A stretch of DNA of 64,000 bases. It comes from Pseudarthrobacter sp. NS4 (lineage in GTDB: Bacteria > Actinomycetota > Actinomycetes > Actinomycetales > Micrococcaceae). A program made the translations under genes and the position numbers. The stretch covers positions 3,782,001 to 3,846,000 of the forward strand of contig NZ_CP103288.1 of assembly GCF_024758005.1 (NCBI RefSeq), given 5' to 3'. Below, one piece after another: positions 41,614 through 61,610 of this stretch (position 1 is the first letter of the stretch; each line of letters begins with the position of its first letter). The notes beneath the pieces were generated by a model. It was given only the letters and a program-made list of their open reading frames with translations, ran no database searches and was not told the origin of the DNA.

Positions 41614-41636
41614 CATGTTCCTCTTTTCATGTTGGG

Positions 41637-43379
41637 TCAGCTGAGGGGCCGGGTCAGGGCGGACCAGGCCGGGATTTCGAGAGTCCGCGTGTACCCGTCT
41701 TCGAGTTTTACGGCTGTCTTCAGCGGCTGTGCTGTGAGATTAGCGGCGAAGAGCAGCATTCCGGTTCCGGATGCTACCGGGTACAGCACCAGGCCGGGGA
41801 CGGCACCTTCGACATGCAGCACATCAGCGCCCCGCAGGTCGGCCAGTTTTGACAGGATCTCGAACGCCGGCGTAAGGAATCCTTCTGCCGTGACGAGGCC
41901 TCTGGGGCCGCTGGCCTCGAAGTAGCTGACGGATTCCACGCCAGGAACCGTCAGGGCATTGATGCTGCCCAGCAGCCAGGCGGCGGTGAACTCCTCCGCC
42001 TGGAGCGGGTCGGTTGTCATGGCCTCCAAGGTGGCGGGGTCGTAGGCGCCGTGGGCGGAGACGGCGTTGAAGCGGGCCTTGAGGGTCACGGGACCGATGT
42101 GCAGAGGTTTGCCGGATCCGAGATGCAGGGCATTCAGAGCTGTCTGCCGTTGGATGGGCAGGCTTTCGACGATGTGCGGCACTTCGGTGGCGTGCATCTG
42201 GGGTGTGATGCTGTAGGTAATCGCGTCTGCGTCGGGCCGGATGGAGTCCCGTTGGCGGTTTAGCTCTGTGAAGTGGGAACGGGCGCCGGAAAGCAATGCA
42301 CCGTCGAATTTGCGGCGTTTCGCCTCGGTGAGCAGTTGCTCCCACAATTCCGGCTCGGTGACGTGCCCGTTGGAGCTGAACGTTCCGATTCTGATTACAT
42401 GTGCCAGAGGCAACAGCTCCATCACCGGCGGGATGTCCGCGGGGGTGGTGGCGATAATCCGCACATCCAGCGGGCTGCCGAGTTCGTCGGCCTGCCGGGA
42501 GGCGTGTGCCAGCAGCCCTGCGGCGGCGGCAGGATCACGGCCGGGAACCTCCACGATCAAGGCCTCGAGGCCGGGCAAGGACGGCAGTTTTATTACGGAT
42601 GTGGATGCCGACGTGCTCAGGGCCGGGACGCTACCACGGGCTTCCTTCCTCACGGTCAGCACATTTGGCGCAGATGCCCGGACAGAAATTGTCGTAACCG
42701 GTGTCGATGGTATGGCGCTGAGCCGGACACTCTGGTGGATCTGCTGACCGGTGTCAATACTGACGGGGAAGGGCCAGGACAGTGGGGTGCTGTAGGTCTT
42801 GAAGGAGGCGTCGGTCCAGTTTCGCTGGTCTTCGGTTTCGAAGACGTCGCCGCTGAAGTCCAGCCGAAAGGCCGTGCCGTCTCGTTCCCAGTTCATGGCG
42901 GCAACATCCACGAAGGGCTGGTGCGGGCTGATGTCCGTGGGGAAGGCGCTATGGATCTCGGTGTGGTCCGGCGACGTGATGCCCACATCGCGCCCGGCGT
43001 CATCGGGCCGGTGCAGGACTACCAGGCCGATGCGGTTGCTCCGGAAATCCTGGGTCGCGATGCCGTCGAAGGTCACCTGGAGGTCATCGGCAGAGGCATG
43101 GAGGGTGAGTTCGGCCCGGTATTCGCAGTCGAGCCCGGTGAACCGAATAACGAGGGTCTTGGCGAGTGTTTCTGCGTCTTGGCTGTGAGTGACAGACTCG
43201 ATAACGGGCGAAAGGGTTCTCCAGTCGTGATCCCGCACCACGGGCCGGATGGCCCTGACGACTGGTTTTCCCCGATATCTAATGTCGGCGATTTCGTCAC
43301 CGCGCAATTGCAGCAGCCAGGGTCCGTGTGCAAGTTCCTGGGCAGGCGTAAGGAGCCGGGACTCGTTTTCCGCAAGCAT
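41637..43379 (-). CDS. apnL: Probable D-apionate lactonase (ApnL family)
   Basis: 580 aa, no signal peptide. N-terminal beta-rich domain with the blocks FRSNRIGLVVLHRPDDAG and EDQRNWTDASFKTYSTPLSW; middle TIM-barrel-like part (SVRASAPNVL, ADELGSPLDVRIIATTPADI, LLSGARSHFTELNRQ); C-terminal beta part ending TLEIPAWSALTRPL. The DQRNWTDASFKTY block is what I associate with ApnL, which opens D-apionolactone to D-apionate. Its neighbours agree. The start is the ATG at 43379. A GH79-like glycosidase of unknown specificity is the alternative. Confidence 0.62.
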   Translation of the reverse strand: MLAENESRLLTPAQELAHGPWLLQLRGDEIADIRYRGKPVVRAIRPVVRDHDWRTLSPVIESVTHSQDAETLAKTLVIRFTGLDCEYRAELTLHASADDLQVTFDGIATQDFRSNRIGLVVLHRPDDAGRDVGITSPDHTEIHSAFPTDISPHQPFVDVAAMNWERDGTAFRLDFSGDVFETEDQRNWTDASFKTYSTPLSWPFPVSIDTGQQIHQSVRLSAIPSTPVTTISVRASAPNVLTVRKEARGSVPALSTSASTSVIKLPSLPGLEALIVEVPGRDPAAAAGLLAHASRQADELGSPLDVRIIATTPADIPPVMELLPLAHVIRIGTFSSNGHVTEPELWEQLLTEAKRRKFDGALLSGARSHFTELNRQRDSIRPDADAITYSITPQMHATEVPHIVESLPIQRQTALNALHLGSGKPLHIGPVTLKARFNAVSAHGAYDPATLEAMTTDPLQAEEFTAAWLLGSINALTVPGVESVSYFEASGPRGLVTAEGFLTPAFEILSKLADLRGADVLHVEGAVPGLVLYPVASGTGMLLFAANLTAQPLKTAVKLEDGYTRTLEIPAWSALTRPLS

Positions 43380-43456: not shown

Positions 43457-43680
43457 TCACGCTACGGCGCGGAGCCGGACGGCGATGTACTGCCGGCCGG
43501 GCAGGTCGATGCGGAACCGGCCTTGAAAGGTGCCTGGAAGTGTCTCCACGGTCATGTTCCAGGTGTCGATGACGTCGAATCTCGAAGCTGACGTCCTGAG
43601 GCTTCACGAACCGTCGGTACGTGGGCTGGAAGAAGCCGAAGTAGATGAGCTCGTGCTCGTTTGCAGAGCCGCTGTGAGAC
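43457..43680 (-). pseudogene. C-terminal tail of a deleted DUF5605-type glycosidase (apiosidase-like)
   Basis: Behind the GH3 coding frame another frame reads NEHELIYFGFFQPTYRRFVK then PQDVSFE; after a shift, FDVIDTWNMTVETLPGTF followed by QGRFRIDLPGRQYIAVRLRA ends at 43457. This matches the pattern of the C-terminal domain that follows DUF4038/apiosidase-like catalytic domains in DUF5060-DUF4038-DUF5605 proteins (YFGFxQPxYRRF...IDTWNMT...G.F.IDLPGRxYxAVRL). No catalytic domain remains, and the relic overlaps the last GH3 codons out of frame. The gene was most likely lost by a deletion that fused its tail to the GH3 end. Confidence 0.55.
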
Positions 43681-46051
43681 TGTCCTTGATGAAAATCTCA
43701 GCTGTGGCGTGTATATCCCGGGAGGAAAGCCCCACGGATACCTTGTACGTGCCGGGGTGCAGGATCGACTGCCCGCTACCAGCGTCATAGGCAGCCAGTT
43801 CATCTGCGGGGATAGCAAAACTGAAGCGGTAGTTTGCGCCCGCTTTGACCATTGCCGCGCTGAAGGCTTTAAGCATCTGCGGTGGATGGCCTGCTGAAAC
43901 GGGACAGCCGACATAGACCTGAGGTACTACTTTGCCTTCTCGGTGTCCAATATTGCGGACGTCGACGCTCCCATGAAGATCGCCGGAGATGAGTTCGAGA
44001 GCCAGCGGGCCTGAGGTGAATTCTGTATAACCAAGGCCGTGACCAAAAGCGAAGGCAGGCGCGGTGCCGGTAGCGTCATACCAGCGGTAGCCCACCAGGA
44101 GTTCATCGTCGTAATGTACAGTCCCATCGACACCGGGATACCGTTCCGGCGAGCTCACCGGGGTCAAGTCTTCACTTCCGGGGAAGGTCAGGGGCAACCG
44201 GCCTCCTGGTTCTGCCTTCCCAGCGAGGAGACGGGCCAGGGCCTGCGCGAACCGCTCCCCCGGATTCCACATGTGCAGGACAGCGGCAACATCGTCCAGC
44301 CAGGGCATGACCACGGGTCCGCTGCCACAGGTCACCACCACTGTCCTTGGGTTCGCGGCTGCGACCGCTCTTACGAGCGCCTCCTGATCTCCCGGGAGGT
44401 GCAACGAATCCGCGTCCATCGCTTCACCGGTCACCCTGCCTACCACGACAACTGCGACATCGGCAGCGCGTGCAGCATCTACAGCATCATCGAGCGCCTG
44501 ATCCGGACCGGTGATCCCGAGCCTGATTCCTGGTAGGACAACCGGAGGCATGGTTATCGCCGGGCCCGTTTGGTATTCAGCCCTGATGACTACTTCTTCC
44601 CCGCCCTTCCATGTGACAACAGCCTGGAGAGGATACTCGGGGCCATGAAACATGGGGGAAGCTTCCCTGAACCCTGCAGCCACTTTCTCCTCATTAATGA
44701 AGAGCTCCCCTTCTCCTGCAAATGTGAGGGCAAGGCGATAGCTGCCTGTCTGTGGCGGCGTAAACCGCCACAGCAGGGTAGCGGACCAATCCGGTCCGAT
44801 CCCCTCCGGCGGGTCGAGGAGCGCAAACTCATCCAGGCTGAGCTCCAGCTCCTGTCCGGTAACGTCGTCCCGGACCGTTGCGTGGACACGGCCCTCAGCA
44901 GTCGGCAGGGGCACGTCGCCAAGCGTCCCCCCAACGACCCTGACCGGCATGTCGCCGAAGTGGACGCGCAAGGCCTCCGCCAACGGAGTAACCCGGGCCG
45001 GACTCAGCGTAACGGCAGCGGAGCCGCCCATTACCAACAGGTGTGCAGGGTCAGCGATTCCCGGCAGCGCCAGGGATGATGTCGTCTCCGGCGTCAACGG
45101 CAGGAGGTTGCCGACGTTTTTGAGCAGGACAGACCCCGACTCCAGGATTTCCTGTGCGAGGTCCTGCGACAGTTCATCATTCAACGGCTCAATGGAATCC
45201 TGCACAACCGCCGGATTTGCCTTTGCAAGAGACCAGAGAAGATGCCCGCTGATGAGGTCAAGCTCCTCTCCCACCAACGCCTGGACCATATCCTTGGTTC
45301 TGCCGGCTGCACCTCCCAAGCCAGGCAAGTCCAGGCCAGCCTGCATCGCCTTCATGTCGTCCCTGACGGCGAAAAGGAAGTCAGGAACGATGACACCTTC
45401 CCACGCCCATTCATCACGCAGGATCCCCAATACTTCCCGGCTTTCCGAAACGTACTCGCCATTAAGCCGGTTGTAGGAGCTGAGTACAGCTCCCGCACCA
45501 TACTTGGTGAGCACCCTCCGGAATGGCTCGGCATAGATTTCCCGAAGCGCACGCTGCGAAATGTGGACGTCGACGGCATCAGAACGGCGCGGCAGGCTCC
45601 CCTTGCCCGTACGGAGGAACTCAAAGTTGTTGGCGACAAAGTGCTTGGGCACGGCCATCACACCGGAGCGCTGGAGTCCTTCGACTATCGGGCCTCCTAT
45701 TTCACCCACCAAAAAAGGGTCTTCGCCCAAGGCTTCCCCCGTTCGGCCGGCCCACGGGACGCGGGCGATATCAAGACCGGGGGCGAGCAGCGCATTTCGT
45801 CCCGCAGCAAGGCATTCACGGGCGAGGGCATCGCCGTAGCGTAAGGCCAGCGGCCGGTCAAAGGAAGATGCGACGGCCAATCCGGATGGAAACGCAGTTG
45901 CTCCTTTGGAGCCCCGCACGCCATTAGGTCCGTCCGCATACACCAGATCAGGTAAGCCGGCGGCCGAAAGGTCATGAAGCGCGATGGCTACCTTCTGGTC
46001 ATGACTTAGCTCCACGGTGGTGGCGGCGCTGTGCTGAGCTGGGCGTGGCAT
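43604..46051 (-). CDS. Glycoside hydrolase family 3 protein with PA14 insert
   Basis: 815 aa, cytoplasmic (no signal peptide). GH3 N-terminal barrel with YADGPNGVRG, VPKHFVANNFEF and the nucleophile Asp224 in VIVPDFLFAVRDDM; C-terminal sandwich domain contains a PA14 insert (LLWRFTPPQTGSYRLALTFA) and ends in a fibronectin-III-like module. Such proteins are usually beta-glucosidases that act on imported disaccharides or plant glycosides. The last 25 residues (after AEIFIKDS) are Ser/Thr-rich and arise from reading the neighbouring glycosidase relic in the wrong frame. AGGAAACGAT precedes the ATG. Exact sugar specificity is unknown. Confidence 0.85.
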   Translation of the reverse strand: MPRPAQHSAATTVELSHDQKVAIALHDLSAAGLPDLVYADGPNGVRGSKGATAFPSGLAVASSFDRPLALRYGDALARECLAAGRNALLAPGLDIARVPWAGRTGEALGEDPFLVGEIGGPIVEGLQRSGVMAVPKHFVANNFEFLRTGKGSLPRRSDAVDVHISQRALREIYAEPFRRVLTKYGAGAVLSSYNRLNGEYVSESREVLGILRDEWAWEGVIVPDFLFAVRDDMKAMQAGLDLPGLGGAAGRTKDMVQALVGEELDLISGHLLWSLAKANPAVVQDSIEPLNDELSQDLAQEILESGSVLLKNVGNLLPLTPETTSSLALPGIADPAHLLVMGGSAAVTLSPARVTPLAEALRVHFGDMPVRVVGGTLGDVPLPTAEGRVHATVRDDVTGQELELSLDEFALLDPPEGIGPDWSATLLWRFTPPQTGSYRLALTFAGEGELFINEEKVAAGFREASPMFHGPEYPLQAVVTWKGGEEVVIRAEYQTGPAITMPPVVLPGIRLGITGPDQALDDAVDAARAADVAVVVVGRVTGEAMDADSLHLPGDQEALVRAVAAANPRTVVVTCGSGPVVMPWLDDVAAVLHMWNPGERFAQALARLLAGKAEPGGRLPLTFPGSEDLTPVSSPERYPGVDGTVHYDDELLVGYRWYDATGTAPAFAFGHGLGYTEFTSGPLALELISGDLHGSVDVRNIGHREGKVVPQVYVGCPVSAGHPPQMLKAFSAAMVKAGANYRFSFAIPADELAAYDAGSGQSILHPGTYKVSVGLSSRDIHATAEIFIKDSLTAALQTSTSSSTSASSSPRTDGS

Positions 46052-46147: not shown

Positions 46148-46429
46148 TTGGAAAAGTGTTGGGGCCACGATCACGCGGCGGGCAAGGATTTGCAGGCCCA
46201 TATTGCAAATTACGAAGAACAGCGGCTCCAAACTCTTGACATGATCGACGCCCTCGAACACCGCGCCCATCCCACGCTTGCAAGGCGCCTCACCCGATAC
46301 GCCGAAGAGGAACGGGACCAGATCGTCCGCTTCAAAATTTACGCCTACGAAGGCCAACTTGCCCGCGCCGAGCAGGAGATCGCCTGGGCGAAGCGCGGCT
46401 TGCAGATACTTGAGGAGATGGGCTTGTAG
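46148..46429 (+). CDS. Small helical hypothetical protein
   Basis: 93 aa from a TTG at 46148 with AGGA 9 bp upstream. The sequence is strongly alpha-helical and charged (LQAHIANYEEQRLQTLDMID, YAEEERDQIVRFKIYAYEGQ, LARAEQEIAWAKRGLQILEE), with no domain I recognise. It lies between divergent GH3 and convergent carboxylesterase genes, and ends 9 bp before the latter. It has coding-like composition but the unusual start keeps confidence moderate. Confidence 0.4.
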   Translation: MEKCWGHDHAAGKDLQAHIANYEEQRLQTLDMIDALEHRAHPTLARRLTRYAEEERDQIVRFKIYAYEGQLARAEQEIAWAKRGLQILEEMGL

Positions 46430-46438
46430 CCGCGCTGT

Positions 46439-47972
46439 TTAAAGGGCGGCGTCCCCTGCCCAGAACTTCCGCAGTTCCCGCCGCGGGTCGTCCACCAAGC
46501 GAGGGAGCACGTCCAAAATCATGGTCCTCCGGCGCCCGCCGTAAACCGGCCAATCCGGCAGACCAAGAGCCGCAGGCTCGCCCGTGCGCGCAAACGCACC
46601 CCAAGCGTTGCTCATCATATCGCTAAGGCTTTGCGGCGCTTCCCCTCGTGTGAGGAAGGCGGCCTGGGACGAGCCCAGCTGCCGGAACACAAAGGGAACA
46701 TCCAGGGCATGACAGGAGCCCAGCCTGCCGCCCATAGCAGGGGCTGCGCCAGGTGAAGAGGTAGCAAAATGTTTTACCGCCTGTTCCCCGGCGGGCGTCC
46801 AGAAGCCGGTTACTGGGTTGCCGGTAGACGGAATCCGAAATTGCCGCCTCCAGCAGCTGCCTGCCGCCGGGTGCGACCCCCACTGATCGGGTAACGGCTT
46901 CGTCATACTCCCTGACCCTCCCGGCAGCCCCTGCGCCTGCAAGGACCGCTGCTGCGCGCTGGACATGGGACGGCTCTGCCGGTGTTGCGGGGCGCATCTC
47001 GACGGCGAAAGACCCCTCGTTCAGGTTCGTCCCGATCAGCAGGTCAACGTCAGTGTTGAGGCCGTTCCGCACAGCGTCAAGCGGAGGGGCCGGAAGCGAT
47101 GGCGTTCCTACGGTGGGCTTAAAAGGCAATGGCACCGCGAAGGTTTTGGAACCGGCACGCCGGACCATCTCCTCCTGCGCTGCAAGCAGCCGTTCCACAG
47201 GAACCGCAAGCAGTTCCGGCGCGAGAGCATGGTCCAGCCCGCACAGCGAAAGGAATTCCTCCGTGCTGCGTACCGCGTCCCCTGCGCTGCGGTACCTTTC
47301 GGCGGTACCGCTCTGCATGATCGCCCTCCGGAACAGCCCCTGGGATGACGGCATTCCCAACAGCGTGCCTATGGCGGCAGCCCCTGCTGATTCACCGAAG
47401 AGCGTCACGTTATGCGGGTCACCGCCGAAGGCCCATATATTCGTTCTGACCCATCGCAGCGCTTCAAGCTGATCCAGCAGCGCCGCGTTCGAGGAATCGG
47501 CGTACTCCGGGCCCAACAACTCCGCCAAGTGCAGGAAGCCCAGAGCGCCCAGCCGATAGTTGACCGTCACCACCACGGTACCGGTCGCTGCCGCGAGGTA
47601 TCCGCCGTCGTACATCCCGTCACTGCCGGAACCGGAGACATAAGCACCACCATGGATCCACACCATCACCGGGGCTCTCGCGTCGCCAGTGTGGGGCGTC
47701 CAGATATTGAGGTTGAGGCAAGCACTTTCGCTCCAGCTCCGAAGCCTGCTGCCCGGATGTGCCTGCGGTTCGGGGTTCTGCGGCGCGGTCGGTCCGGGCG
47801 CTGTGCAGTCACGGACTCCCGCCCAACTCTCCGCGTGAACGGGCGGGAGGAACCGGCGCGACCCTGCAGGCGAACCGGCGTAGGGAATGCCGAGGAACCG
47901 GCGGACGCCCACACCGTCAACATGGATGGCTGTTCCACGGACTGTCCCCGCGGAGGTCCTGGCGATCGTCAT
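46439..47972 (-). pseudogene. Type-B carboxylesterase with a one-base frameshift
   Basis: From the ATG at 47972 (AAGGAG 10 bp upstream) the frame encodes a carboxylesterase/para-nitrobenzyl esterase: FLGIPYAGSPAGSRRF, oxyanion VMVWIHGGAYVSGSG, nucleophile Ser195 in TLFGESAGAAAIG and Glu in IGTNLNEGSF. After KTFCYLFTWRSP it changes to nonsense, while another frame continues LGSCHALDVPFVFRQLG, LSDMMSNAWGAFARTGEP and DWPVYGGRRRTMILD to a stop at 46439. Removing one base near 46739 restores a protein of about 510 aa with its catalytic His. It is divergent from the quercetinase gene. An esterase here could hydrolyse the depside produced by quercetinase, an inference. Confidence 0.75.
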
Positions 47973-48046
47973 GAAGTCAATGCTCCTTGGATAACGAAAA
48001 GGTCGGTCGCCAGCCTCCCACCATTCGGCATCAGCCGGCATCGGTC

Positions 48047-48061
48047 TTCCAACTATTGGAA
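48047..48061. promoter_or_regulatory. Candidate IclR operator upstream of the quercetinase gene
   Basis: TTCCAACTATTGGAA, read as TTCCA-N5-TGGAA, is a perfect dyad 82 bp before the quercetinase ATG in the promoter shared with the carboxylesterase. The same pattern lies at 56880-56894 beside the iclR gene. Confidence 0.5.
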
Positions 48062-48142
48062 AACCGGTTCGCACCGAAGTCCACCGCACGGAATGATGAA
48101 AGTCACATTCCGGCCCAGCCGGACAACTGGAAGGAAGAAACC

Positions 48143-49213
48143 ATGTCCCTCAGCGTGGAGGAAATGAACCAGCAGCTGCCCGTGGCCAATACCCTGCCCG
48201 GCGAAGCTGTCCCCTACTACATGGCGTCAGGTGAAGGCGCCCGCTACGAGATCAACGGCCAGCTGGTCACCGTCATCGCCCGCGCGGCTGATACCGGCGG
48301 AATTTTCAGTGCCGCGTACATCTCCGGCGGCATGGGTGCGGAATCGCCGTTCGTCAGCCACAAGGTGGAACACAAAACCCTTTACGTCTTCGATGGCATC
48401 CTGCACGTCTGGCTCCCCGGCGAAAGCCGCATCCTCACCCCCGGCGACTCCGTGGTCATTCCGCCCAACACGCCCCACGCCTACCGCATGGCCAGCCCCT
48501 ACACGCGCTTCCTGAACTGGATGACGCCTGGTGGCGCCGAGGCGTACTACGAGCGGGTGGGTACGCCCATTGATTCCCACGTCCCGCCTGTCCGTGCCGG
48601 CCGCACGGCAAGTTTGCAGGAACAGGCTGAGGTGGGGGCCGAGTTCGGCATCTCCTTCCCCGACGTGGAGCGGGTCACACCAATTTTCAAGCGTGACGCC
48701 GGCCTGCCGCCCACGCAGAGCCCCTACTTCCTCAGCGCCCACGAAGGTGAGCGCCTGGTCAGCTACCAGACCATGTTCACCTACTTGTCACGGCCGGCCA
48801 ACACCGGCTCAAACTACTTTGCAGTGCACACCAAGGGGGCCAAGACGCCCTATATCCCGCTGCACTTCCACTCGGAGCACACTGAGAACTTCCTCGTCAC
48901 CGAAGGCCGGATGTGGATGTACGCCAACGGACGGGAAATGCTGCTGACCAAGGGCGACTTCGTGCACGCCCCTGCCGGCACCATCCACTCCTTCGCCCTG
49001 GATTCGCACAACACCCAGATGGTGGGCTTCCTGACCCCGTCGGTCTTCAACGGATTCTTCGAGTATTTCAACAAGCCCACCGAGGACTACATGTACACCG
49101 AGGGCGGCGAGCCCTACATGGACATGGAAGGCTTCGGCCGGGCCCAGGCCGAGATGGACCTGACAGTGGTGGGCCCCCCGCCGCAGCGCCGGGCGGCACT
49201 CGAGATCTCCTAG
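48143..49213 (+). CDS. Bicupin quercetin 2,3-dioxygenase-like protein
   Basis: 356 aa from the ATG at 48143 with GGAAGGAAG upstream; the frame from 47987 overruns the promoter. Two cupin domains are evident: the first (about 40-130) with HKVEHKTLYVFDGILHVWLP and VIPPNTPHAY, the second (about 230-320) with the full metal-ligand set HFHSEHTENFLVTEGRMW and HAPAGTIHSF. This is the layout of bacterial quercetinases (QdoI, QueD), which open the flavonol C ring, releasing CO and a depside. The first cupin lacks some ligands, so only the second may hold metal. It is the only plus-strand gene in this minus-strand region. Confidence 0.75.
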   Translation: MSLSVEEMNQQLPVANTLPGEAVPYYMASGEGARYEINGQLVTVIARAADTGGIFSAAYISGGMGAESPFVSHKVEHKTLYVFDGILHVWLPGESRILTPGDSVVIPPNTPHAYRMASPYTRFLNWMTPGGAEAYYERVGTPIDSHVPPVRAGRTASLQEQAEVGAEFGISFPDVERVTPIFKRDAGLPPTQSPYFLSAHEGERLVSYQTMFTYLSRPANTGSNYFAVHTKGAKTPYIPLHFHSEHTENFLVTEGRMWMYANGREMLLTKGDFVHAPAGTIHSFALDSHNTQMVGFLTPSVFNGFFEYFNKPTEDYMYTEGGEPYMDMEGFGRAQAEMDLTVVGPPPQRRAALEIS

Positions 49214-49231
49214 CTTTTTCCACGGCAACAG

Positions 49232-49263
49232 GAAAGCCCGGACTTTCAAAAGTCCGGGCTTTC
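49232..49263. terminator. Bidirectional terminator between quercetinase and DUF3500 genes
   Basis: GAAAGCCCGGACTTT and AAAGTCCGGGCTTTC pair perfectly over 15 bp with a 2-nt loop, between two convergent stops. Confidence 0.85.
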
Positions 49264-49277
49264 TTGTCGCTACGGGA

Positions 49278-50516
49278 TCAGCTGTTCCAGGCCTGCTTCA
49301 CAAGTTCGCGGCCGTAGTCGTTGCCGTTGGGGGTGCGGACCACGGTGTGCATGTGGAAGGGTGCGGGTTCGTTGTTGCTGAGGAACACGCCGGTGTGATG
49401 GTCGAGTTCAAGTACCACCACGGGGCTCTGCAGCCGGAAGTAGAACGCCTCTTCACCTTTCCAGCCGCCTATCCAGCTGAAGAAGGTCGCGGGGTAGTGC
49501 TCCTGGATCTCCCGGCGGCGGGCAGCCCTTGGGCCGTCCGGGAGGTAGGCAATAAAGTCGTCCACCACGGCGTCCAGCACGGTGCGGGCTTCTGCCGGCA
49601 TGTCAGCTACCCGGATGCCCTCGTACGGGATCACGCGGTTGTCCTGGAAGCAGCCCCCGAGGTGGCGTTCGTCGCCCGGGTGGATCCGGCCCTCCGGCAT
49701 GGCCGGGTCCACCATCTCCCGGTATACCGTAGCCTGCGCCCGAAGGTCCTCCGGGAGCGCAGCCATCAGCTGCCGGGCCAGCCCAATGCGCTCCTTGAAC
49801 ACCTTGACGCCCTTGTGCGGGCCGTCGTCGATCATGTCCGGTTCGGCACCCATGAACACGGGCGAGATCACCAGCTGCGTCCCGGCCACCAGGCAGTTCA
49901 GCGCGGCGTGGTGGCCAAAGATCTGCCACCCCCACGGCTCCGTCCCGGACGGCTCGCCATAAAGGGCCACGTTGTAGCTGAACTCGTTCATCAGCAGCGG
50001 CAGCTCCACCAGATCTCCCAGGAAGCCGTTGATCCGCATCAGATTTCGCACCAGTTCGTAGCCCTCGGCGCTCAGGCCCGCCTCCACCAATGCGAGAGCG
50101 GCGTCGCGGACCGGCGGATCCAGTTCATCCAGCCGGAGCCCGGTGTCGTGCTGCATGAACTCGGGGTTGGCCCAGCTCTGCCACTCCGGCGCATCCACGG
50201 CGTAGCAAAGCCTGCGCTTCTGCTCGGCGGTAACCGCACCGAGGAGCTTGCCCGCTGCCGCCACCATTTCCGCGGTCGGCGCCTCCTCACCGGGACGTGC
50301 GGCGGTGAGCGGATACAGGCCCTCGCGGCGGACACCGTCGCTGGTGATGCCGGTGAAAGCCTGCGGATACAGCTTTGTCCAGCCCTCGATCATGGGCCCC
50401 GCGAAGGAATCGGTTTTCGCCGCTTCAGCGTATTCACGGGCATTCAGGCCGCGGATTTCCGCCACCCGCGGGTGGTCCGGGGCAAAAAGGAAGTCACGGA
50501 ATGACAGCGTCGACAC
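49278..50516 (-). CDS. DUF3500 domain protein
   Basis: 412 aa from the GTG at 50516, which has CAGGAGCACCC before it. The final third carries the signature block: FYFRLQSPVVVLELDHHTGV, then NEPAPFHMHTVVRTPNGNDYG, and upstream FGHHAALNCLVAGTQLVISP. The clusters of conserved His and Asp (DHHTG, HMHTVVR) look like metal or cofactor ligands. The family is, as far as I know, of unknown function. Its start overlaps the FAD hydroxylase gene by 23 bp, and FAH and hydrolase genes lie upstream, so it acts in the same aromatic pathway. It could be a hydrolase or a novel oxygenase; I cannot say which. Confidence 0.78.
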   Translation of the reverse strand: MSTLSFRDFLFAPDHPRVAEIRGLNAREYAEAAKTDSFAGPMIEGWTKLYPQAFTGITSDGVRREGLYPLTAARPGEEAPTAEMVAAAGKLLGAVTAEQKRRLCYAVDAPEWQSWANPEFMQHDTGLRLDELDPPVRDAALALVEAGLSAEGYELVRNLMRINGFLGDLVELPLLMNEFSYNVALYGEPSGTEPWGWQIFGHHAALNCLVAGTQLVISPVFMGAEPDMIDDGPHKGVKVFKERIGLARQLMAALPEDLRAQATVYREMVDPAMPEGRIHPGDERHLGGCFQDNRVIPYEGIRVADMPAEARTVLDAVVDDFIAYLPDGPRAARRREIQEHYPATFFSWIGGWKGEEAFYFRLQSPVVVLELDHHTGVFLSNNEPAPFHMHTVVRTPNGNDYGRELVKQAWNS

Positions 50517-52266
50517 GGGTGCTCCTGAACTGGTCTTGGGATGCCGGATCCTGGGATGGCGGCTGTTGGGATGCCGGCCATCCGGCGGCGATGGACAGTG
50601 CTGCGGCGGCAGCACCGGCGGAGCTGCCGCGCCAGGCCACATGCTGGTCCGGGCGGACCAACACAGCTTCCGCTCCCCACACTTCGGACAGCGGGGTGCC
50701 GTCGTCTGCAGGTCCGACAGCGGCAGCGGTCACCGGGATGCCCTCCCGGACACCGGTCTCCAGCACCGCTGCAAAACCCTCGGCTTCCGGCACCCGGCCC
50801 AGCGCGCCGGCATCTACCAGCAGGGTGAAGCCCTGGCCCAGCCGGCCATAGACCGAGGTGGCGTCCTCCAGCCACACGTGGGGCAACAGGGCGCCCGGGC
50901 TTGCGCTGGGAATATAGCGGATGGGGTCCTCGGCGGGAACGGGCGAGCCGTCGGGCACCACCACGGACGAATCAGCGTAGGCATAACCGAGAACCAGGCC
51001 CAGGGAATCGAACTCGCTTTGCTTCACGGCGAGCGCCTGGTGTGCCGCCTGCCGGGCCGCTTCACCTGCGGCGCCTTCGGAAGTGAGTTCCGGGTCGGCG
51101 AAATGGTAGGCCAGGGCCTTGCCGTTGGCCGCAGCGTCCCGGATGGTGCGGGCGGCCACCGGTCTGCGCTCGTCCCCGTAGCTGGCCAGAAGCGAGGGCC
51201 CGCCCCATCCCTTGATGACGGCAGCGAGTTTCCATGCCAGGTTGGCGGCGTCGCCGATGCAGGTGTTGAAGCCGTGGCCGCCCCATGGCGGGTTGAGATG
51301 GGCAGCGTCGCCCACCAGGAAGATGTTGCCGCGGCTGTATTCGGGAGCCAGCAGCATGCGCGCGGTCCAGGGGTCCGTTGCCAGAACTTCGAGATCCACA
51401 TCCGCACCCACCAGCGAACGCACCATGGACTCGGCCTCCCCCGTACTGACGGCTTTGTCAGGATCGACGCCTTGGATGATGGCCCACCACATGTCCCCCG
51501 TGTCCATGGGGCCCACCATTCCTGACACGTCCGTCCCCACTACCCAGTACTGGACGGCAGGATCGAGGGTCACCGCGGAGGCGAGTTTGGTGGACCGGAA
51601 AAGGATACTGATGTTGGACAGCGCAGCGGATCCCCCTTCCAGCCGCATGCCGAGGCTGCGGCGTACGGCGGATGACCCGCCGTCGGCCCCGATCACGTAG
51701 TCAGCCTTAATGGTGCGGTTGTCGCCTGAAGCGTTGGACACGTCGACGGCGTGCGGCAACTGCACAACGCCGGCATCGTGCACGCCGCGAACCTCATGGA
51801 CTGTCCAGCCCGTGATGAAAGTGATCTGCGGATGATCCACCGCAGCGGCGCGGAGCACCTCTTCCAATACCGGCTGCGGAACCTGCTGCCCGCATTCGGG
51901 TTGGGGGTCATAACGGCCGGGAACCAGTTGGAACGCGTTCGGGAACCGGCGCAATTCATGAGCTGCCGGGCCGGTGAGCCCGGTGCAGAAGATAACGTCC
52001 TGAGCGTAGTCGACCGGAAGGGGTGAGGCGGAACGCAGCGCATCCGCCAGGCCCAGACGCAGTAAGTGCGTCATGGTCCGCGCGTTGGTGGTCTTGGCCC
52101 GGGGGCGGGTGTGGTCTACAGCGTTTCGCGGCTCGATGACCGTGCTGGCGATGCCGCGGGCAGCCAGGTCCAGCGCCAGGAACAGCCCGCTGGGGCCGCC
52201 GCCCGCAATCAGGACCTGCACCTCTTCCGGGATCCCATGCCCCGGTGGAAGATGTCCGGTGATCAT
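50494..52266 (-). CDS. FAD-dependent aromatic monooxygenase (PheA/TfdB type)
   Basis: 590 aa from the ATG at 52266, overlapping the FAH stop. The FAD fold opens with VQVLIAGGGPSGLFLALDLA (GxGxxG), has the DG motif YVIGADGGSSAVRRSLG and the ribose-binding GD motif NIFLVGDAAHLNPPWGGHG. A C-terminal thioredoxin-like dimerisation domain (about 440-560) is typical of phenol hydroxylase-type enzymes. These hydroxylate phenols, resorcinols or flavonoid A rings with NAD(P)H and O2. In this cluster the target may be a phloroglucinol-type ring from a flavonoid. The last 25 residues (Gln/Ser/Pro-rich) look disordered. Confidence 0.85.
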   Translation of the reverse strand: MITGHLPPGHGIPEEVQVLIAGGGPSGLFLALDLAARGIASTVIEPRNAVDHTRPRAKTTNARTMTHLLRLGLADALRSASPLPVDYAQDVIFCTGLTGPAAHELRRFPNAFQLVPGRYDPQPECGQQVPQPVLEEVLRAAAVDHPQITFITGWTVHEVRGVHDAGVVQLPHAVDVSNASGDNRTIKADYVIGADGGSSAVRRSLGMRLEGGSAALSNISILFRSTKLASAVTLDPAVQYWVVGTDVSGMVGPMDTGDMWWAIIQGVDPDKAVSTGEAESMVRSLVGADVDLEVLATDPWTARMLLAPEYSRGNIFLVGDAAHLNPPWGGHGFNTCIGDAANLAWKLAAVIKGWGGPSLLASYGDERRPVAARTIRDAAANGKALAYHFADPELTSEGAAGEAARQAAHQALAVKQSEFDSLGLVLGYAYADSSVVVPDGSPVPAEDPIRYIPSASPGALLPHVWLEDATSVYGRLGQGFTLLVDAGALGRVPEAEGFAAVLETGVREGIPVTAAAVGPADDGTPLSEVWGAEAVLVRPDQHVAWRGSSAGAAAAALSIAAGWPASQQPPSQDPASQDQFRSTRVDAVIP

Positions 52267-53123
52267 CAGGCACGGCTCCGGAGAGTCGCGTCGCCAACCG
52301 GCGTGGTCAAGGTGCCCAGGTTTTCGATCTCCACCTCGACGGTGTCCCCCGGCTGAAGCAGCCACTGCGGAGTCCGCGCGTAACCGACGCCTTCAGGGGT
52401 TCCAGTGGCAATGAGGTCCCCGGGATGAAGCGTGAACGTCTGGCTGATCAGGGAAATGATGGCCGGAACCGAGAAAATCATGTCCCGGGTGTTGCCGTTC
52501 TGGGCCTCGATGCCGTTCACGCGGGTGCGTACCTGGAGGCCGTCGCGGAGGTCGCCCACCTCGTCGCGGCTGAACAGGGGCCCCGCTGGGCCGCTGAAGT
52601 CGCCGTTCTTACCCAGAGTCCATTGCGAGGTGAGCTTCTGTGCCGTACGGGAGGTGATGTCGTTGAAGGTGGAGTAGCCGAAGACCGCCTCTTCAGCCTC
52701 GGACTCGTCCGCGGACTCCACGCGCCGGCCGATGTAGGCTGCGACTTCACCTTCCCAGTCCAGACCTGCTTCGCCAGCGGGCACGGGAACCGGGACATTA
52801 CCCACGGACAGGGATGCAGTCCACCGTCCAAAAAGAGTGGGGTACGGCGGCAGATCCTGGTCTTTGTAGCTGCCTTCCGCAGCATGCGCCTTGTAGTTCA
52901 GCCCCACGCAGATGACCCTGGCCGAGGCAGGTACGAGCGGTACTTCGGTGACGCTGCCCCGCACCAACCCTTCATTGGCGTCGGCGGTCAACGTCACGGC
53001 CTTGTCCTGCCAGTCGGCGGGATCGGCCCAAAACTGAGGTACGGGTGCCAGTGGAAAGAGGTGCGCGTCCACCAGGGCTGCGACCCAGGATTCGCCATGG
53101 TGGTAGATGCCGACAAACTGCAT
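52266..53123 (-). CDS. Fumarylacetoacetate hydrolase (FAH) family protein
   Basis: 285 aa. The C-terminal FAH barrel has VICVGLNYKAHAAEGSYKDQ, the metal-binding acidic residues in LDWEGEVAAYIGRRVE, FGYSTFNDITSRTAQ and GDLIATGTPEGVGYARTPQW near the end. Members hydrolyse C-C bonds of acylpyruvates or isomerise/decarboxylate ring-cleavage products. Its stop overlaps the hydroxylase start, so a role downstream of that enzyme in the same ring-degradation route is likely. Substrate not determined. Confidence 0.85.
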   Translation of the reverse strand: MQFVGIYHHGESWVAALVDAHLFPLAPVPQFWADPADWQDKAVTLTADANEGLVRGSVTEVPLVPASARVICVGLNYKAHAAEGSYKDQDLPPYPTLFGRWTASLSVGNVPVPVPAGEAGLDWEGEVAAYIGRRVESADESEAEEAVFGYSTFNDITSRTAQKLTSQWTLGKNGDFSGPAGPLFSRDEVGDLRDGLQVRTRVNGIEAQNGNTRDMIFSVPAIISLISQTFTLHPGDLIATGTPEGVGYARTPQWLLQPGDTVEVEIENLGTLTTPVGDATLRSRA

Positions 53124-53177
53124 GAGGGGCCTTTCAGTTCTTGCCCGCGCACAATCCGTGCGGTGCGATGTTCAAAG

Positions 53178-54059
53178 TCAGGGTTTCTGCGCCTGGCGGC
53201 GGAAAAAATCGATGGTGGCGCTGGTGGCCTGCTGTGCGGCGGCAGGGCTGTTGTCCGGCAGCAGCCACATGTGGTCCGAATCCTCAATAAGGAGAAGCTC
53301 GACGTCCGCGCCGGCGCCTTCCAGTGCTTCGGCGAGGGAGACCGATTGGGTCACCGGCACGAAGCGGTCATGGGAGCCATGGACCAGGAAAAAGGGCGGG
53401 GCGTGTCCGCCCACATAAGTGAGAGGGCTGGCCGCTGCGGCCTTGTCCGGGGAATCAGCAGGTTGCGCCCCGATTAGCAGCGCCTCACGCGAGCCGGGAT
53501 CGTCAGCCGTTGCGACGGCGTCAGGACGGGCCTGTGCACCCATCCTCACGAGGTCTGATGGCGAGTACCAGGCAGCGACCGCAGCAACGGCGTCGTCCGT
53601 CTTGTCCGCCGGGTCTTGGAAGTCTTCAGATCCGGCCGTGAGGCCCGTCAGGCTGGCGAGGTGGCCGCCGGCGGAATCACCCCAGGCATAGATCCGGTCC
53701 GGGTCCACGCCGTACTCTGCCGCGTGGGAACGAAGCCATCGGATGGCAGCTTTCGCGTCCAGCAACTGAGCCGGAAATGTGGCCTCGGTGCTGAGGCGGT
53801 AGTCGGCAGAGGCGACGACAAAACCTGCGTCCACCAACTGCTCAATGGGGCTAAGGCCGGTGGCATCGACCGTTGGTCCCAGCGAAGAGCGCTCCCCCGT
53901 CCGCCATCCGCCACCGTGGAAGTGCACTACAGCAGGAAAGCCGGTGCCGGCGGGCGTCTGTTGAGGGGCATAAAGATCCAGCAGTAACGGCCTGGGACCT
54001 TCAGGACGGGCGAACTCAATCCCTTTCCGGACCCGCCCTGCCGTCGTCGTCGACTCCAT
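53178..54059 (-). CDS. Alpha/beta hydrolase, carboxylesterase type (BD-FAE-like)
   Basis: 293 aa without signal peptide. HFHGGGWRTGERSSLG is the oxyanion motif, YAWGDSAGGHLASLTGL carries the nucleophile Ser129, Asp is in LVHGSHDRFVP and His in EDSDHMWLL. It is a diverged paralogue of the protein at 55791 (YRLSTEATFPAQLLDAKAAI versus [20 protein letters not shown]). It leads the unit hydrolase-FAH-hydroxylase-DUF3500. An ester linked to a phenolic or sugar is a plausible substrate. Confidence 0.82.
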   Translation of the reverse strand: MESTTTAGRVRKGIEFARPEGPRPLLLDLYAPQQTPAGTGFPAVVHFHGGGWRTGERSSLGPTVDATGLSPIEQLVDAGFVVASADYRLSTEATFPAQLLDAKAAIRWLRSHAAEYGVDPDRIYAWGDSAGGHLASLTGLTAGSEDFQDPADKTDDAVAAVAAWYSPSDLVRMGAQARPDAVATADDPGSREALLIGAQPADSPDKAAAASPLTYVGGHAPPFFLVHGSHDRFVPVTQSVSLAEALEGAGADVELLLIEDSDHMWLLPDNSPAAAQQATSATIDFFRRQAQKP

Positions 54060-54843
54060 GTGTACCGCGTTTCTGTCATGCGCGGTCCTGTGTTGTGGAC
54101 CACGTCGTGACTCAACTTTGGGGCATGACAGGAAGGGAGTGCGCCGCGGGTTTCACTGAATGAAAGGTTTTGAAGGAGCCTTGGGACCGTGCTGCGATCG
54201 GCAGACCGGCTTGAACTTTCATCAGTTGGATGGGTGAAGAGGAGGCAAGCGCCACCTCTCTTGTGATTCGGCACCTCTTTATCAAGGTATCGACTTTTCA
54301 CGGCTGGAATTGCAATGTAAGAGGCCTCCCGGTTCGATGACTCTTGAGGAAGCTACCCACGAACTTCTCAACCCGCGGGCAAGGTGCACCTTTGAATCTT
54401 CGGAATTCCGCTGGCTAAGGAAGCTCCGCCGTTTCAGCGGAAGCGCTCCTGCCAACGCAGACCGACAGCCCCGGCGTTGCTGGCCCCACGGCAACCGCTG
54501 ACTGTCTTCCGTGGCAGATTCGACCGGCACGGGCAGTTGCCAACAAAGTCTGGCCCCGGACATGTTGCCATAGGCAGCGCAGGGCAACGGCACTTGGCGG
54601 CCACTCACAGACTGTGACCGGAGCCGCGGCCAGGGACGGCCGCCGCCTGCGCTTTGTGCACAACTGGTCTTGGACGCCAAGTCGTTATATAACCTCCCCC
54701 GCGGCGCCATCTCGGGAAAGGAGTACAGCATGGGGAAATACCCGAGCTGTCCGCCTGGGATGTGAAAGTCCTGTTTAAGACCAGCTGGGCTGTTTCGGGT
54801 TGCAGTGCACCGTAACCGGCGCACTCCAAGCGTGGTGAACCGG
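54060..54843. other. 784-bp gene-free promoter region
   Basis: No open frame resembles a known protein. It holds a TTTCA-N5-TGAAA dyad near the downstream operon and separates it from the two upstream hydrolase genes, so it probably includes the operon's promoter. Confidence 0.4.
54151..54165. promoter_or_regulatory. Weak third IclR-like dyad
   Basis: TTTCACTGAATGAAA (TTTCA-N5-TGAAA) is a perfect dyad with the same spacing as the TTCCA-N5-TGGAA sites but one changed base in each arm. It is 92 bp upstream of the hydrolase/FAH operon start. Confidence 0.35.
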
Positions 54844-55794
54844 TTACCGAGCTGCCCGCAACTCCCCTGCCAGGAAATCCAGGGCCGGCTTTCCCTCGGG
54901 AAGACCAGCCGTGTGGTTCAGGTGGCCGTGCACCCCGCCTTCGGCGAGGAAGTAGGTAACGGGCACACCGGCGCGTTCCAAAGACGAGGCAAAAAGTTCG
55001 GTTGATCCGCGAACGTCGTCGTACTCACACGCAAGCAGTGCGGTGGGCGGAAGGCCGGTAGGGTCCGCGTAACCTGGCATCGCGTAGGACGACGCCATGC
55101 TCACGGGGCCGCCCACGTAGTTCTCGGCGGAACGGACGCAGTCCTCCAGCGTAAACCGCAGACTGCGCGGCAGTTTCGCCATCACTTCCTCATCAAGTCC
55201 CTTAGCCGGAGCGGGCAATTCGGCATGGAGGAAAGGGTAGGCCAGCAGGAGCTTTGCCGGCAGCGGATGCCCGGCGTCCAGGAGGTACAGGGCTGCGCCC
55301 ACCGCGAGGTTTCCGCCAGCACCGGCACCGCCCAGGCACAGAAGCTCCGGATCCAGGCCCAGCGACTCCGCGTTCTTCCGCGCCCAGAACCATCCGGTGA
55401 GCGCGTCGTCGTGAGGAACGGGAAAGCTGACGCCGTCGCGGGCCAATCGGTAATCCACGGAAAGCACCGGAGTCCCATTCTCCGCCAATACCCGTGCCAG
55501 GTAGTCCGACTCGGGCATGTCAAGGCCACCGCTAACGAAGCTGCCGCCATGCAGCCAGACCAGCCCCGGGCTGCCCGGCGGACTCCCCTCGCCATAGATC
55601 CGGATCGGAACCGGACCGTGGCGTCCGTCGGCCGAGACGGTGCGGATGGTTACATCTGGCCCCGGAGAACGGACAGCATTGGGGTTCAGGGTCTGCGGAC
55701 CTGCAGGAGAGGCCAGGTATTCGGCAAAACCGGCATCCGGTGCCACTCCGGCGTCCGTTGCGGGAACGGTACGCTCCGTACGACGGGGCGTCAT
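54844..55794 (-). CDS. Alpha/beta hydrolase (HSL-like) lacking the catalytic Ser
   Basis: 316 aa. The HSL-like fold shows [20 protein letters not shown] (oxyanion), [12 protein letters not shown] (acid) and [10 protein letters not shown] (His). At the nucleophile elbow the expected GGASAGG reads GGAGAGGN: codon 158 (55321-55323, GGT on the minus strand) is Gly where Ser is required. A single A-to-G change from AGT would cause it. The rest is intact, so it is either an inactive enzyme or a binding/regulatory protein. It overlaps the next hydrolase gene by 4 bp (ATGA), hence is coexpressed with it. Confidence 0.8.
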
Positions 55795-56771
55795 CGCTTC
55801 AATTTCTCGGAAAAGTAGGAAACGGCCCTTGCAATGATGGTGTCCATCTGGTCCTCGGCGCCGAAGAAGCAGTGGTCGCCGCCCTTGACGGTCAGCACCT
55901 CATGCTCCACACCGGCCCCTGCCAGCGCAGCAGCAAGAAGGTCCGTTTGGGAATGCGGCACCAAGCCGTCACGATCACCATGAACCAGCAGGAACGGCGG
56001 CGCCCCCGCGTCCACATAGCTGACCGGGCTGGCAGCGGCCAGCAACGCGGGGTCGTCCGAACCACCGACCAGCATGCGATTGGGTTGCAGGGACATTCCC
56101 GACGGAACAGCGGCAGTCAGGGCAGCAGAAAACAGTCCTGCAGGGGTTTCCATGGGTGGGACGTCGCAAAGGGAGGAAACACCATAAAAGTCGACGACGG
56201 CGCTGATGGCACTTGGATGCCCCTGCGCCCCCAAACCACCATGGAGGTCTTCCCGGTTTCCAGTCAGCCCCAGCATCGCGACGAGGTGCCCGCCGGCGGA
56301 TTCACCCCACGCTCCGAAGCGGTCCGGGTCGATGTTCAATACCGCGGCGAACTCACGAAGGTACCGGACGGCGGCTTTAAGGTCATGCAATTGCGCAGGG
56401 AAGGGCGCTTCCAGGGAATGCCGGTAATCCACGGTGGCACACGCGATTCCTGCCTCATTGAGCAGGCGGAAAACCGAGTCGGACGCGAACGTTGGCGGCA
56501 GCTCACGCCGGTCTCCCAACTGGAACGCACCTCCGTGCACCCAAAGGACCAGCGGGACCGGGCCGGAGGACTGACGGGGCAACCAGACGTCCATCTTCAG
56601 CGGCCGGAACCCGATGGCCTTGGCGTACGTAATCTCCTGGTGCACCGACGAGACGTCCGAGACGTGCCGGGGCTCGCCTGGAGCGTCAAAGACCGGAATG
56701 GACGGTACAGCCGAGCCCGGCCCCGCAGTAGCCGGCAGGGAGGAATCGACTACATCGGTGGTGTCATGCAC
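55791..56771 (-). CDS. Alpha/beta hydrolase, carboxylesterase type (BD-FAE-like)
   Basis: 326 aa from the GTG at 56771 with TAGGAGCACACTTGACA upstream (an ATG at 56828 is an alternative without a ribosome site). Motifs: [39 protein letters not shown] (nucleophile Ser), [12 protein letters not shown] (Asp) and [13 protein letters not shown] (His), so catalytically complete. It is the first gene of a unit with the Ser-less hydrolase, and is divergent from iclR with a shared dyad between them. Likely removes acyl or aryl esters from a plant phenolic or glycoside. Confidence 0.82.
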
Positions 56772-56879
56772 TGTCAAGTGTGCTCCTAGGTGGCTCAGGT
56801 TCCGGGACGCCCCCGCCGGTGGCGGCAACGACGGCTAAGATTCAAGCTTCCTTCCGGGCGACTGGCATCCACAGGTCAC

Positions 56880-56894
56880 TTCCAATAGATGGAA
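56880..56894. promoter_or_regulatory. Candidate IclR operator upstream of iclR
   Basis: TTCCAATAGATGGAA (TTCCA-N5-TGGAA) is a perfect dyad between the divergent hydrolase and iclR starts, 61 bp before iclR. It repeats the pattern at 48047-48061. Confidence 0.5.
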
Positions 56895-56954
56895 TAGTAT
56901 TATGGATGGCTCATTTTTCAGCGTAGCCACCTCTATGACGCCAGGAAGTTTTTT

Positions 56955-57785
56955 ATGACCGCCCCCATGGAAACAGATGCTCCTCCCGTGCGCGGCAAGC
57001 GGCCCAAGCAGGGCGAACCGGTCATTGACCGTGCCCTGAGCCTGCTCGCAGTCTTCTCCGACCGCCGTCGGGCCCTGACGCTCTCAGAACTGGCCCGTCA
57101 CGCCGGCATGCCTGCACCGACCGCTCTGCGGCTGATCGCCAGGCTGGTCGCCTGGGGTGCGCTGGAACGGCTCGACGACGGCCGGTACGTTGTGGGGGTC
57201 CGCTTGTGGGAGGTCGCGTCCCTGTCGCCGCGGGGCCATGGGGTGCGTGAGATTGCGCTGCCTTATCTTGAAGACCTTTTTGAGGTGACCCGCCACCACG
57301 TCCTGCTGGCAGTCCGGGACAACGAGCATGCGGTGCTTATTGAGCGGCTGTCCTCGAAAGACGCCATTGAAGCGGCGTACCGGGCGGGCGGCCGGGCACC
57401 TTTGCGTAGCACCGCCGTGGGGCTGGTCCTGCTGGCCGGCGCGGACCAGCAGTTTCAGGAAGCGACGCTGCAAGGGCCACCAGAAAACGAAATCGGCGTG
57501 GAATTCATGCCGGCGGGCCAGCTTCGCCGGACCCTTTCGGACGTCCGCCGCACTGGAATCGCCATGATCCGCCGCACCTACCCCTCAAGGACCGTATCGG
57601 TAGCTTCCCCGGTCTTTGACGCGCAAGGCGCCGTTGTGGCGGCCTTGTCCATTGTGGTCCCGGACGGCTCCACACCGCCCAACGTGCTGGCACCGGCAGT
57701 TCGGGCCACAGCCCGCGCCGTGTCCAGAAACCTGGGCCACCAAACAGAAGTCAACCTGGACATACGGGTCAATTCCCAAGGCTAG
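56955..57785 (+). CDS. IclR family transcriptional regulator
   Basis: 276 aa. A winged helix (about residues 24-75: VIDRALSLLAVFSDRRRALT, LSELARHAGMPAPTALRLIA) is followed by the IclR effector domain (VREIALPYLEDLFEVTRHHV, RAPLRSTAVGLVLLAG, MIRRTYPSRTVSVASPV). CAGGAAG lies before the ATG. IclR proteins regulate aromatic and sugar-acid catabolism, often as activators of divergent genes. The dyad beside it recurs at the quercetinase promoter and weakly upstream of the FAH operon, suggesting control of the whole hydrolase/oxygenase set. Confidence 0.85.
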   Translation: MTAPMETDAPPVRGKRPKQGEPVIDRALSLLAVFSDRRRALTLSELARHAGMPAPTALRLIARLVAWGALERLDDGRYVVGVRLWEVASLSPRGHGVREIALPYLEDLFEVTRHHVLLAVRDNEHAVLIERLSSKDAIEAAYRAGGRAPLRSTAVGLVLLAGADQQFQEATLQGPPENEIGVEFMPAGQLRRTLSDVRRTGIAMIRRTYPSRTVSVASPVFDAQGAVVAALSIVVPDGSTPPNVLAPAVRATARAVSRNLGHQTEVNLDIRVNSQG

Positions 57786-61538: not shown

Positions 61539-61610
61539 GTAAAGGGTGTCCGATCTGCTGGGCCGGCAGTGCCGGCGGCGGGGAAGGTCAATAATTCGAA
61601 AAGGAACTGG

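Follow-up and report, generated by a model that had tools for sequence, protein, structure and literature searches.

In Pseudarthrobacter sp. NS4, a gene cluster was found whose probable role is the degradation of quercetin and other plant flavonols. It lies at 46.4-57.8 kb of the window, the 64,000-nucleotide stretch of DNA that was analysed (positions 3782001-3846000 of C1, the single contig of the 4.44 Mb genome), and comprises a quercetinase-like bicupin, a protein of the DUF3500 family, an FAD hydroxylase, an FAH-family hydrolase, three alpha/beta-hydrolase esterases, an IclR regulator and a broken carboxylesterase (COesterase). On balance, we favour with moderate confidence that these genes form a flavonol-catabolic cassette whose steps run as proposed below, with the DUF3500 protein as the ring opener. 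All genes named in a preliminary description of this DNA (bicupin, esterases, FAD hydroxylase, FAH, DUF3500, IclR and glycosidases of families GH3 and GH78) were recovered by open reading frame (ORF) coordinates and family scans.

The core of the cluster is a packed minus-strand operon in the order esterase–FAH–FAD hydroxylase–DUF3500, whose gene starts we chose from ORF coordinates with a check of the first residues. Its first gene encodes a BD-FAE/Abhydrolase_3 esterase (53178..54059), a candidate depside esterase, followed by the FAH-family hydrolase (PF01557, 285 aa, 52266..53123) with acylpyruvase-like motifs, the FAD-dependent aromatic hydroxylase (PF01494 and PF21274, 590 aa, 50494..52266), a candidate phloroglucinol or 2,4,6-trihydroxybenzoate hydroxylase, and the DUF3500 protein (PF12006, 412 aa, GTG start, 49278..50516), a candidate for opening the ring of 1,2,3,5-tetrahydroxybenzene. 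The FAH stop and the FAD start have one base in common, and the DUF3500 start sits within the end of the FAD gene. The bicupin gene (356 aa, plus strand, 48143..49213) is convergent to the operon and separated from the DUF3500 stop by 64 bases; its ORF as listed extends back to 47987, but we chose 48143 as the likelier start. Family scan, PDB matches and co-occurrence mark its product as a flavonol 2,4-dioxygenase candidate. Two further esterase genes on the minus strand, the second of the Abhydrolase_3 type (54844..55794) and the third of the BD-FAE type (55791..56828), overlap by 4 bases, and the IclR-family regulator (plus strand, 56955..57785) is divergent from the esterase genes; the NCBIfam model nearest to the regulator, PcaR/PcaU/PobR, stayed below its cut-off.

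The bicupin had six PDB matches at E<=1e-3 and all six were quercetinase-type: three belong with YxaG of B. subtilis (2h0v gave E 7e-61, and one entry bears the title 'hypothetical protein yxaG'), two are Streptomyces QueD proteins and one is a quercetin 2,3-dioxygenase, 1gqg, which we take to be the fungal enzyme. The similarity covers residues 18-321 of the 359 scanned, and no NCBIfam model reached its cut-off. YxaG is described as a quercetinase in passages of PMC11069340. A relationship to pirin-like or unrelated cupins, named beforehand as speaking against flavonol degradation, was not found: none of the matches is a pirin. In an alignment of 45 bicupins, 43 from the 80 loci described below and both copies of the own genome, the 3His-1Glu site of the C-terminal cupin was complete (H 45/45, H 45/45, E 45/45 and last H 44/45, the remaining row being truncated). 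Equivalents of YxaG H62 and E69, presumably so numbered in that enzyme, were missing from the N-terminal site in all 44 bicupins covering them, so that none of these 44 has the two metal sites of YxaG, one per cupin domain. Since the C-terminal ligands are kept and the N-terminal ones lost, a bicupin with a single, C-terminal active site is predicted. Only one metal site is in use in the fungal quercetinase and, therefore, the loss of the N-terminal ligands is no bar to quercetinase function. The protein thus resembles YxaG (a bicupin) and QueD (a monocupin) in sequence and in its 3His-1Glu site, here in the C-terminal cupin; unlike YxaG, it has lost the N-terminal ligands and sits in a degradation operon.

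The search for DUF3500 relatives among genome contigs gave 122 proteins, of which the best 80 (L005-L084, many from Micrococcaceae) were kept and their loci inspected over at most 10 kb on each side, less at contig ends; because these loci are related, counts over them are not independent events. An FAH gene was near DUF3500 in 78 of the 80 loci and absent only from L024, where the contig starts inside the FAD gene, and L080. The FAD gene (at least 45% identity) was present in 60 loci, and a weaker FAD gene in 2; an esterase of the EST1 type was found in 57, a quercetinase-like cupin in 53 (43 bicupins, 10 monocupins), a GntR regulator in 25 and an IclR regulator in 22. Glycosidases were found with GH78 near 22, GH1 near 14 and GH3 near 2 loci. 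All 53 cupin loci contained the FAD gene, compared with 7 of the 27 cupin-less loci (L017, L045, L049, L058, L065, L069 and L073), and by our reading of the coordinates the contigs of L017, L045 and L069 stop close to where a cupin could be encoded. Likewise, GH78 or GH1 was near 32 of the 53 cupin loci and near none of the 27 others. The block of esterase, FAH, FAD and DUF3500 with a convergent cupin was also found in other Micrococcaceae, and in L117 (G338, same family) the genes for bicupin, esterase, FAH, DUF3500, IclR and FAD are likewise grouped, in a further arrangement. Gene order varies by lineage, most Geodermatophilaceae loci being arranged as esterase–FAH–DUF3500–FAD. In a tree built from 82 DUF3500 proteins, bicupins are found in a clade of Micrococcaceae and Microbacteriaceae and, apart from it, in Brevibacteriaceae; monocupins are found in Geodermatophilaceae (9) and in Amycolatopsis (1). 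Four changes of the bicupin label are needed on this tree, and two of them, at L017 and L069, may be no more than an effect of contig edges. The monocupin of L048 matched YxaG and QueD quercetinases best. Eight loci (L055, L060, L063, L070, L072, L074, L079 and L084) combine DUF3500 and FAH with GntR and CaiB/carboxyltransferase genes and have neither this FAD hydroxylase nor any cupin; they apparently represent the same central module fed from another substrate.

Co-occurrence was also determined in samples chosen without DUF3500, with Fisher tests that treat genomes as independent. Among 149 genomes of the host family (own included; bicupin at E<=1e-20), 11 had the bicupin, 8 had DUF3500 and 7 had both (p 9e-9; 1e-7 without the own genome). 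Together with the recurrence of the block in the own genome and in other Micrococcaceae, this shows that the genes are grouped more than by chance. In six bicupin loci without DUF3500 (L110, L111, L112, L113, L114 and L118), an esterase of the same kind was directly beside the cupin in 6/6 cases, which supports cupin and depside esterase as the basic pair. The idea that a quercetinase would degrade the flavonol and esterases would split the depside is, taken together, well supported by homology and neighbourhood. A further stretch, L119:3237-11313, carries a monocupin, a PobA-like hydroxylase, a LigB-like dioxygenase, two Amidohydro_2 proteins, an IclR regulator and an esterase, and looks like another flavonol cluster; PF12006 had no match in its genome.

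The genome contains a second cassette of esterase, FAH, FAD, DUF3500 and convergent bicupin in the same order (L003:8084-13989, C1:549-555 kb), and the two cassettes account for both PF12006 matches of the genome. The nearest named relatives of the window DUF3500 are from Arthrobacter/Pseudarthrobacter. Nucleotide identity between the copies amounted to 0.76 for the esterase, 0.82 for FAH, 0.86 for FAD, 0.975 for DUF3500 and 0.92 for the bicupin. When window 48100-54100 was compared with L003:8041-14040 in blocks of 200 columns (the last block has 18 columns, 67%), identity was 92-100% from about mid-FAD through DUF3500 and most of the bicupin and 72-88% elsewhere. Because of this sharp step inside the FAD gene, the DUF3500-side stretch shared by the copies is likely a gene-conversion tract. 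The second cassette is flanked by a PadR regulator, an MFS-like ORF and a VanA-type Rieske oxygenase with its reductase (L003:5010-7132); the VanA-type pair would fit a conversion of O-methylated flavonols (such as isorhamnetin) that leads to vanillate.

From the genes, their conserved linkage, their families and their conserved motifs we infer every substrate and reaction of the following route. Glycosidases would strip the sugars from flavonol glycosides, and the bicupin would open the flavonol C-ring at its C-terminal metal site by 2,4-dioxygenation with release of CO. The resulting depside would be split by the BD-FAE esterase(s) into the ring-B benzoate (protocatechuate from quercetin) and the ring-A product 2,4,6-trihydroxybenzoate. 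Protocatechuate would be passed to a separate pca-type locus, for which two PcaGH-like PF00775 genes next to each other at C1:4331217-4332348 are candidates. 2,4,6-Trihydroxybenzoate would lose CO2 either spontaneously or enzymatically, the candidates being the FAD enzyme and an unlinked gamma-resorcylate-decarboxylase-like enzyme; a gene of the latter kind is found together with an aromatic acid symporter at L107:11589-13862. The FAD enzyme would hydroxylate the ring-A product to 1,2,3,5-tetrahydroxybenzene, which DUF3500 would open with an intradiol-type outcome to 2,4-dioxoadipate (malonylpyruvate) or its lactone, and FAH would hydrolyse this acylpyruvate to pyruvate and malonate. Malonate would then be converted to acetyl-CoA by a pair of enzymes, a CaiB-type CoA-transferase and a carboxyltransferase-like protein. 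The suggestion of the preliminary description that FAD, FAH and DUF3500 proteins handle the phloroglucinol-type half fits this proposed order of steps.

The H and E of HxxE, both E of ExE, a D and a K of the FAH protein were identical in 80 of 80 aligned rows; we take HxxE to be the lid pair and ExE and D the metal ligands of the FAH family. The protein reached no named NCBIfam equivalog (the nearest, 2,4-didehydro-3-deoxy-L-rhamnonate hydrolase, gave 157.8 bits against a cut-off of 500); its PDB relatives are an FAH-family protein and an L-2,4-diketo-3-deoxyrhamnonate hydrolase, and its relatives include the acylpyruvase FAHD1. CaiB genes were found in 15 and carboxyltransferase-like genes in 13 of the 80 loci. 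The two occur together, as a pair of a CaiB-type CoA-transferase and an AccD/AccA-like carboxyltransferase, in 12 loci, in L115 (G466; DUF3500 with FAH, FAD, CaiB and carboxyltransferase) and twice elsewhere in this genome; one of these last two pairs lies between GH1 and GH42, some 19 kb past the bicupin–DUF3500 block. Neither the CaiB nor the carboxyltransferase proteins reached a named NCBIfam cut-off; by family, they would fit a conversion of malonate via malonyl-CoA to acetyl-CoA. In L049, a pyruvate carboxylase adjoins FAH.

The window DUF3500 protein matched PF12006 with 342.7 bits (cut-off 27.2) over profile positions 2-297 of 297, and a Pfam scan at E<=0.001 gave PF12006 only, with no match to PF00775. 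Thus, it may work like an intradiol dioxygenase but is not a PF00775 member by sequence. Histidines in GHH, DHH and HxH motifs are conserved in DUF3500. That DUF3500 opens 1,2,3,5-tetrahydroxybenzene is suggested by gene neighbourhoods elsewhere, because an intradiol dioxygenase-like protein stands in for it beside FAH and FAD in four loci, all from genomes of the same class. The first and most telling, L120, contains IclR, a monocupin, an esterase, a Dioxygenase_N/Dioxygenase_C protein, FAH and FAD, and the nearest solved relatives of the dioxygenase are (chloro)hydroxyquinol 1,2-dioxygenases. Orthologues of this dioxygenase were sought in 150 genomes of the L120 family, and the loci of the five best others were inspected. 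The dioxygenase–FAH–FAD block recurs, together with IclR, in L123, L124 and L125, of which only L123 showed a cupin and an esterase; in L126 and L127 neither FAH nor FAD was found within 18 kb. The dioxygenases of L123, L124 and L125 are 86-87% identical to that of L120, on whose scan their family assignment rests. No DUF3500 match was found in the L120, L123, L124 and L125 stretches. A more distant intradiol enzyme (43%) occurs in L112 with the bicupin, esterase, IclR, an aromatic acid transporter, a gamma-resorcylate-decarboxylase-like gene and CaiB.

Ring opening by this family has been proposed before: passages of PMC12388069 and PMC13094099, citing Martins et al. 2024, name the fungal DUF3500 protein AN10530 of A. 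nidulans as opening 1,2,3,5-tetrahydroxybenzene. The product is named '5-hydroxydienelactone' there, and one citing passage on this step writes the family as DUF3550 with IPR021889. By our own chemical derivation, intradiol C1-C2 cleavage of 1,2,3,5-tetrahydroxybenzene gives 2,4-dioxoadipate, and the fungal product can be read as its lactone form. More tentatively, and as a possibility that we do not hold to be the likelier outcome, DUF3500 may be a family of ring-opening oxygenases with a fold unmatched to known intradiol/extradiol enzymes and an intradiol-type product. Together with FAH and the CoA-transferase/carboxyltransferase pair it would then form a bacterial central pathway (1,2,3,5-tetrahydroxybenzene via 2,4-dioxoadipate to pyruvate and malonate and on to acetyl-CoA) that is fed differently by lineage and completes flavonol mineralisation in Arthrobacter relatives and others.

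Several observations weigh against the proposed route or its generality. DUF3500 was not matched in 4 of the 11 host-family bicupin genomes (39-48% identity). Among 296 genomes of the class (own included; DUF3500 at E<=1e-60, monocupin at E<=1e-25), the bicupin was found in 7, DUF3500 in 8 and both in 3 (p 4e-4; 0.007 without the own genome), two of the three belonging to one genus and the third, G466, having the genes on different contigs; a monocupin was found in 6, none of them with DUF3500 at these thresholds. Quercetinase is thus often apart from DUF3500 and, therefore, the bicupin–DUF3500 link is strong in some lineages but not general. The FAD protein resembles RebC/TfdB/HbpA-type enzymes and not a known decarboxylating hydroxylase, and the gamma-resorcylate-decarboxylase-like gene lies about 26 kb from the cluster, such a gene being near only 1 of the 80 loci. 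This FAD gene was absent near 20 of the 80 DUF3500 loci (some on short contigs), 19 of which keep FAH. As to the four intradiol loci, PF12006 is present elsewhere in two of the genomes (one match in G694, two in G391) and absent from G587 and G658. The intradiol gene lies upstream of FAH (esterase–intradiol–FAH–FAD), a position at which none of the cupin loci with a co-directional FAH showed DUF3500, so that gene content and not the exact position is substituted. L121 and L122 (G424 and G430, with distant FAD homologues and, in the class-level search, no DUF3500 match in the genome) have a weak FAH nearby (34-36%) and no DUF3500, cupin or intradiol gene within 18 kb. Finally, only 9x86 stood out in a fold search with DUF3500, where the lack of a match is no evidence of a different fold; the title of this entry, the one DUF3500 relative with a solved structure, calls it a dehydratase of amipurimycin biosynthesis, and ring opening with O2 thus has no structural support.

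This title, and the fact that no known dioxygenase fold was matched, would suit a flavonol pathway in which the ring is opened by the FAD enzyme, or through a second oxygenation by it, and DUF3500 serves as a hydrolase or a hydratase/dehydratase with a keto tautomer or the product of ring opening as its substrate. Some flavoprotein hydroxylases do cleave rings. Yet the intradiol dioxygenase-like protein stands beside FAH and FAD in the four loci without DUF3500, which speaks against this reading, and the 20 DUF3500 loci without the FAD gene show that DUF3500 does not depend on it; we consider this explanation unlikely, though worth keeping in mind. Another explanation, which we regard as improbable, is that the cupin acts on another polyphenol or a 3-hydroxy-heteroaromatic and that the cassette degrades a plant phenolic other than flavonols. 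The cupin substrate is assigned from sequence, two N-terminal YxaG metal ligands are lost and the NCBIfam cut-off was not reached; however, the solved cupin relatives are quercetinases, a QueD-like monocupin replaces the bicupin in some lineages, rhamnosidase/glucosidase genes are neighbours, and the PobA-like and LigB-like genes of one monocupin locus suit the B-rings of kaempferol and quercetin. Very improbable is a role of FAH as 2,4-diketo-3-deoxy-L-rhamnonate hydrolase in the catabolism of L-rhamnose released by GH78, with an incidental adjacency of DUF3500: the nearest NCBIfam model is indeed that hydrolase, though far below its cut-off, GH78 is present in the window and dehydratase/aldolase-like genes occur near four Geodermatophilaceae cassettes, but FAH accompanies DUF3500 almost throughout, GH78-less and cupin-less loci included, and is also found beside the intradiol enzyme in the four further loci.

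As for the surroundings, the carboxylesterase type B gene (minus strand, 46439..48089) has a frameshift near 46719-46744 and is probably non-functional, unless the frameshift is a sequencing error; homologues were observed near the bicupin or DUF3500 in L010, L018, L021 and L025. A PadR remnant (plus strand, 46160..46462) covers a C-terminal part, corresponding to residues 127-221 of the full-length PadR encoded next to the second cassette. The GH78 alpha-L-rhamnosidase (minus strand, 59253..61538) is a candidate for trimming flavonol glycosides, and the flanking GH3 glycosidase (minus strand, 43604..46051) is, by the locus counts, weakly linked. The island runs past the window end with GH78, ABC-transporter ORFs (named from their sequences only), GH1, CaiB and carboxyltransferase, and GH42 (window 59253-63946; L107:3511-9776). 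On the other side, 37653-43379 encodes TIM-like, xylose-isomerase-like, PGDH_C and D-apionate-lactonase-like (below cut-off) proteins, possibly for apiose/apionate catabolism adjoining the flavonol cluster.

The single enzymes are of known kinds, and bacterial quercetinases are already known. The fungal 1,2,3,5-tetrahydroxybenzene pathway (A. nidulans AN10530) shares a ring-opening candidate of the DUF3500 family, a likeness at family level only; it is fed from gallate by PhyA, whereas the bacterial one would be fed from flavonols via cupin, esterase and a TfdB-like FAD hydroxylase and has FAH as a near-constant partner. With the hydroxyquinol (1,2,4-trihydroxybenzene) pathway it shares a relative of the intradiol dioxygenase, which accompanies FAH and FAD in the four loci without DUF3500. 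Maleylacetate reductase is the usual next enzyme of the hydroxyquinol pathway; here the neighbour is FAH, and the arrangement fits a substrate with one more hydroxyl. The fde naringenin pathway of Herbaspirillum and the Variovorax isoflavone cluster are likewise bacterial oxidative routes of flavonoid catabolism with an FAD hydroxylase but, according to passages of PMC11069340, start on the A-ring with FdeC-type dioxygenation, whereas C-ring cleavage would come first here; the 10 proteins scanned at 46.6-58.7 kb included no member of an FdeC-type or other extradiol family. The statement of the preliminary description that this is not a described pathway holds in part: ring opening by DUF3500 had already been proposed for fungi, and a word-matching keyword search of the openly licensed literature yielded neither a bacterial route from flavonols to tetrahydroxybenzene with DUF3500 nor a gene-level account of the aerobic bacterial fate of the A-ring after C-ring cleavage.

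The proposed route predicts that three proteins convert 2,4,6-trihydroxybenzoate or phloroglucinol to pyruvate and malonate. If true, it would assign a role to DUF3500, so far a family of unknown function, and supply a set of marker genes by which flavonol turnover in soil and rhizosphere could be followed. It would also extend to bacteria a central aromatic pathway which, in a passage of a 2026 paper, 'currently seems restricted to fungi'.

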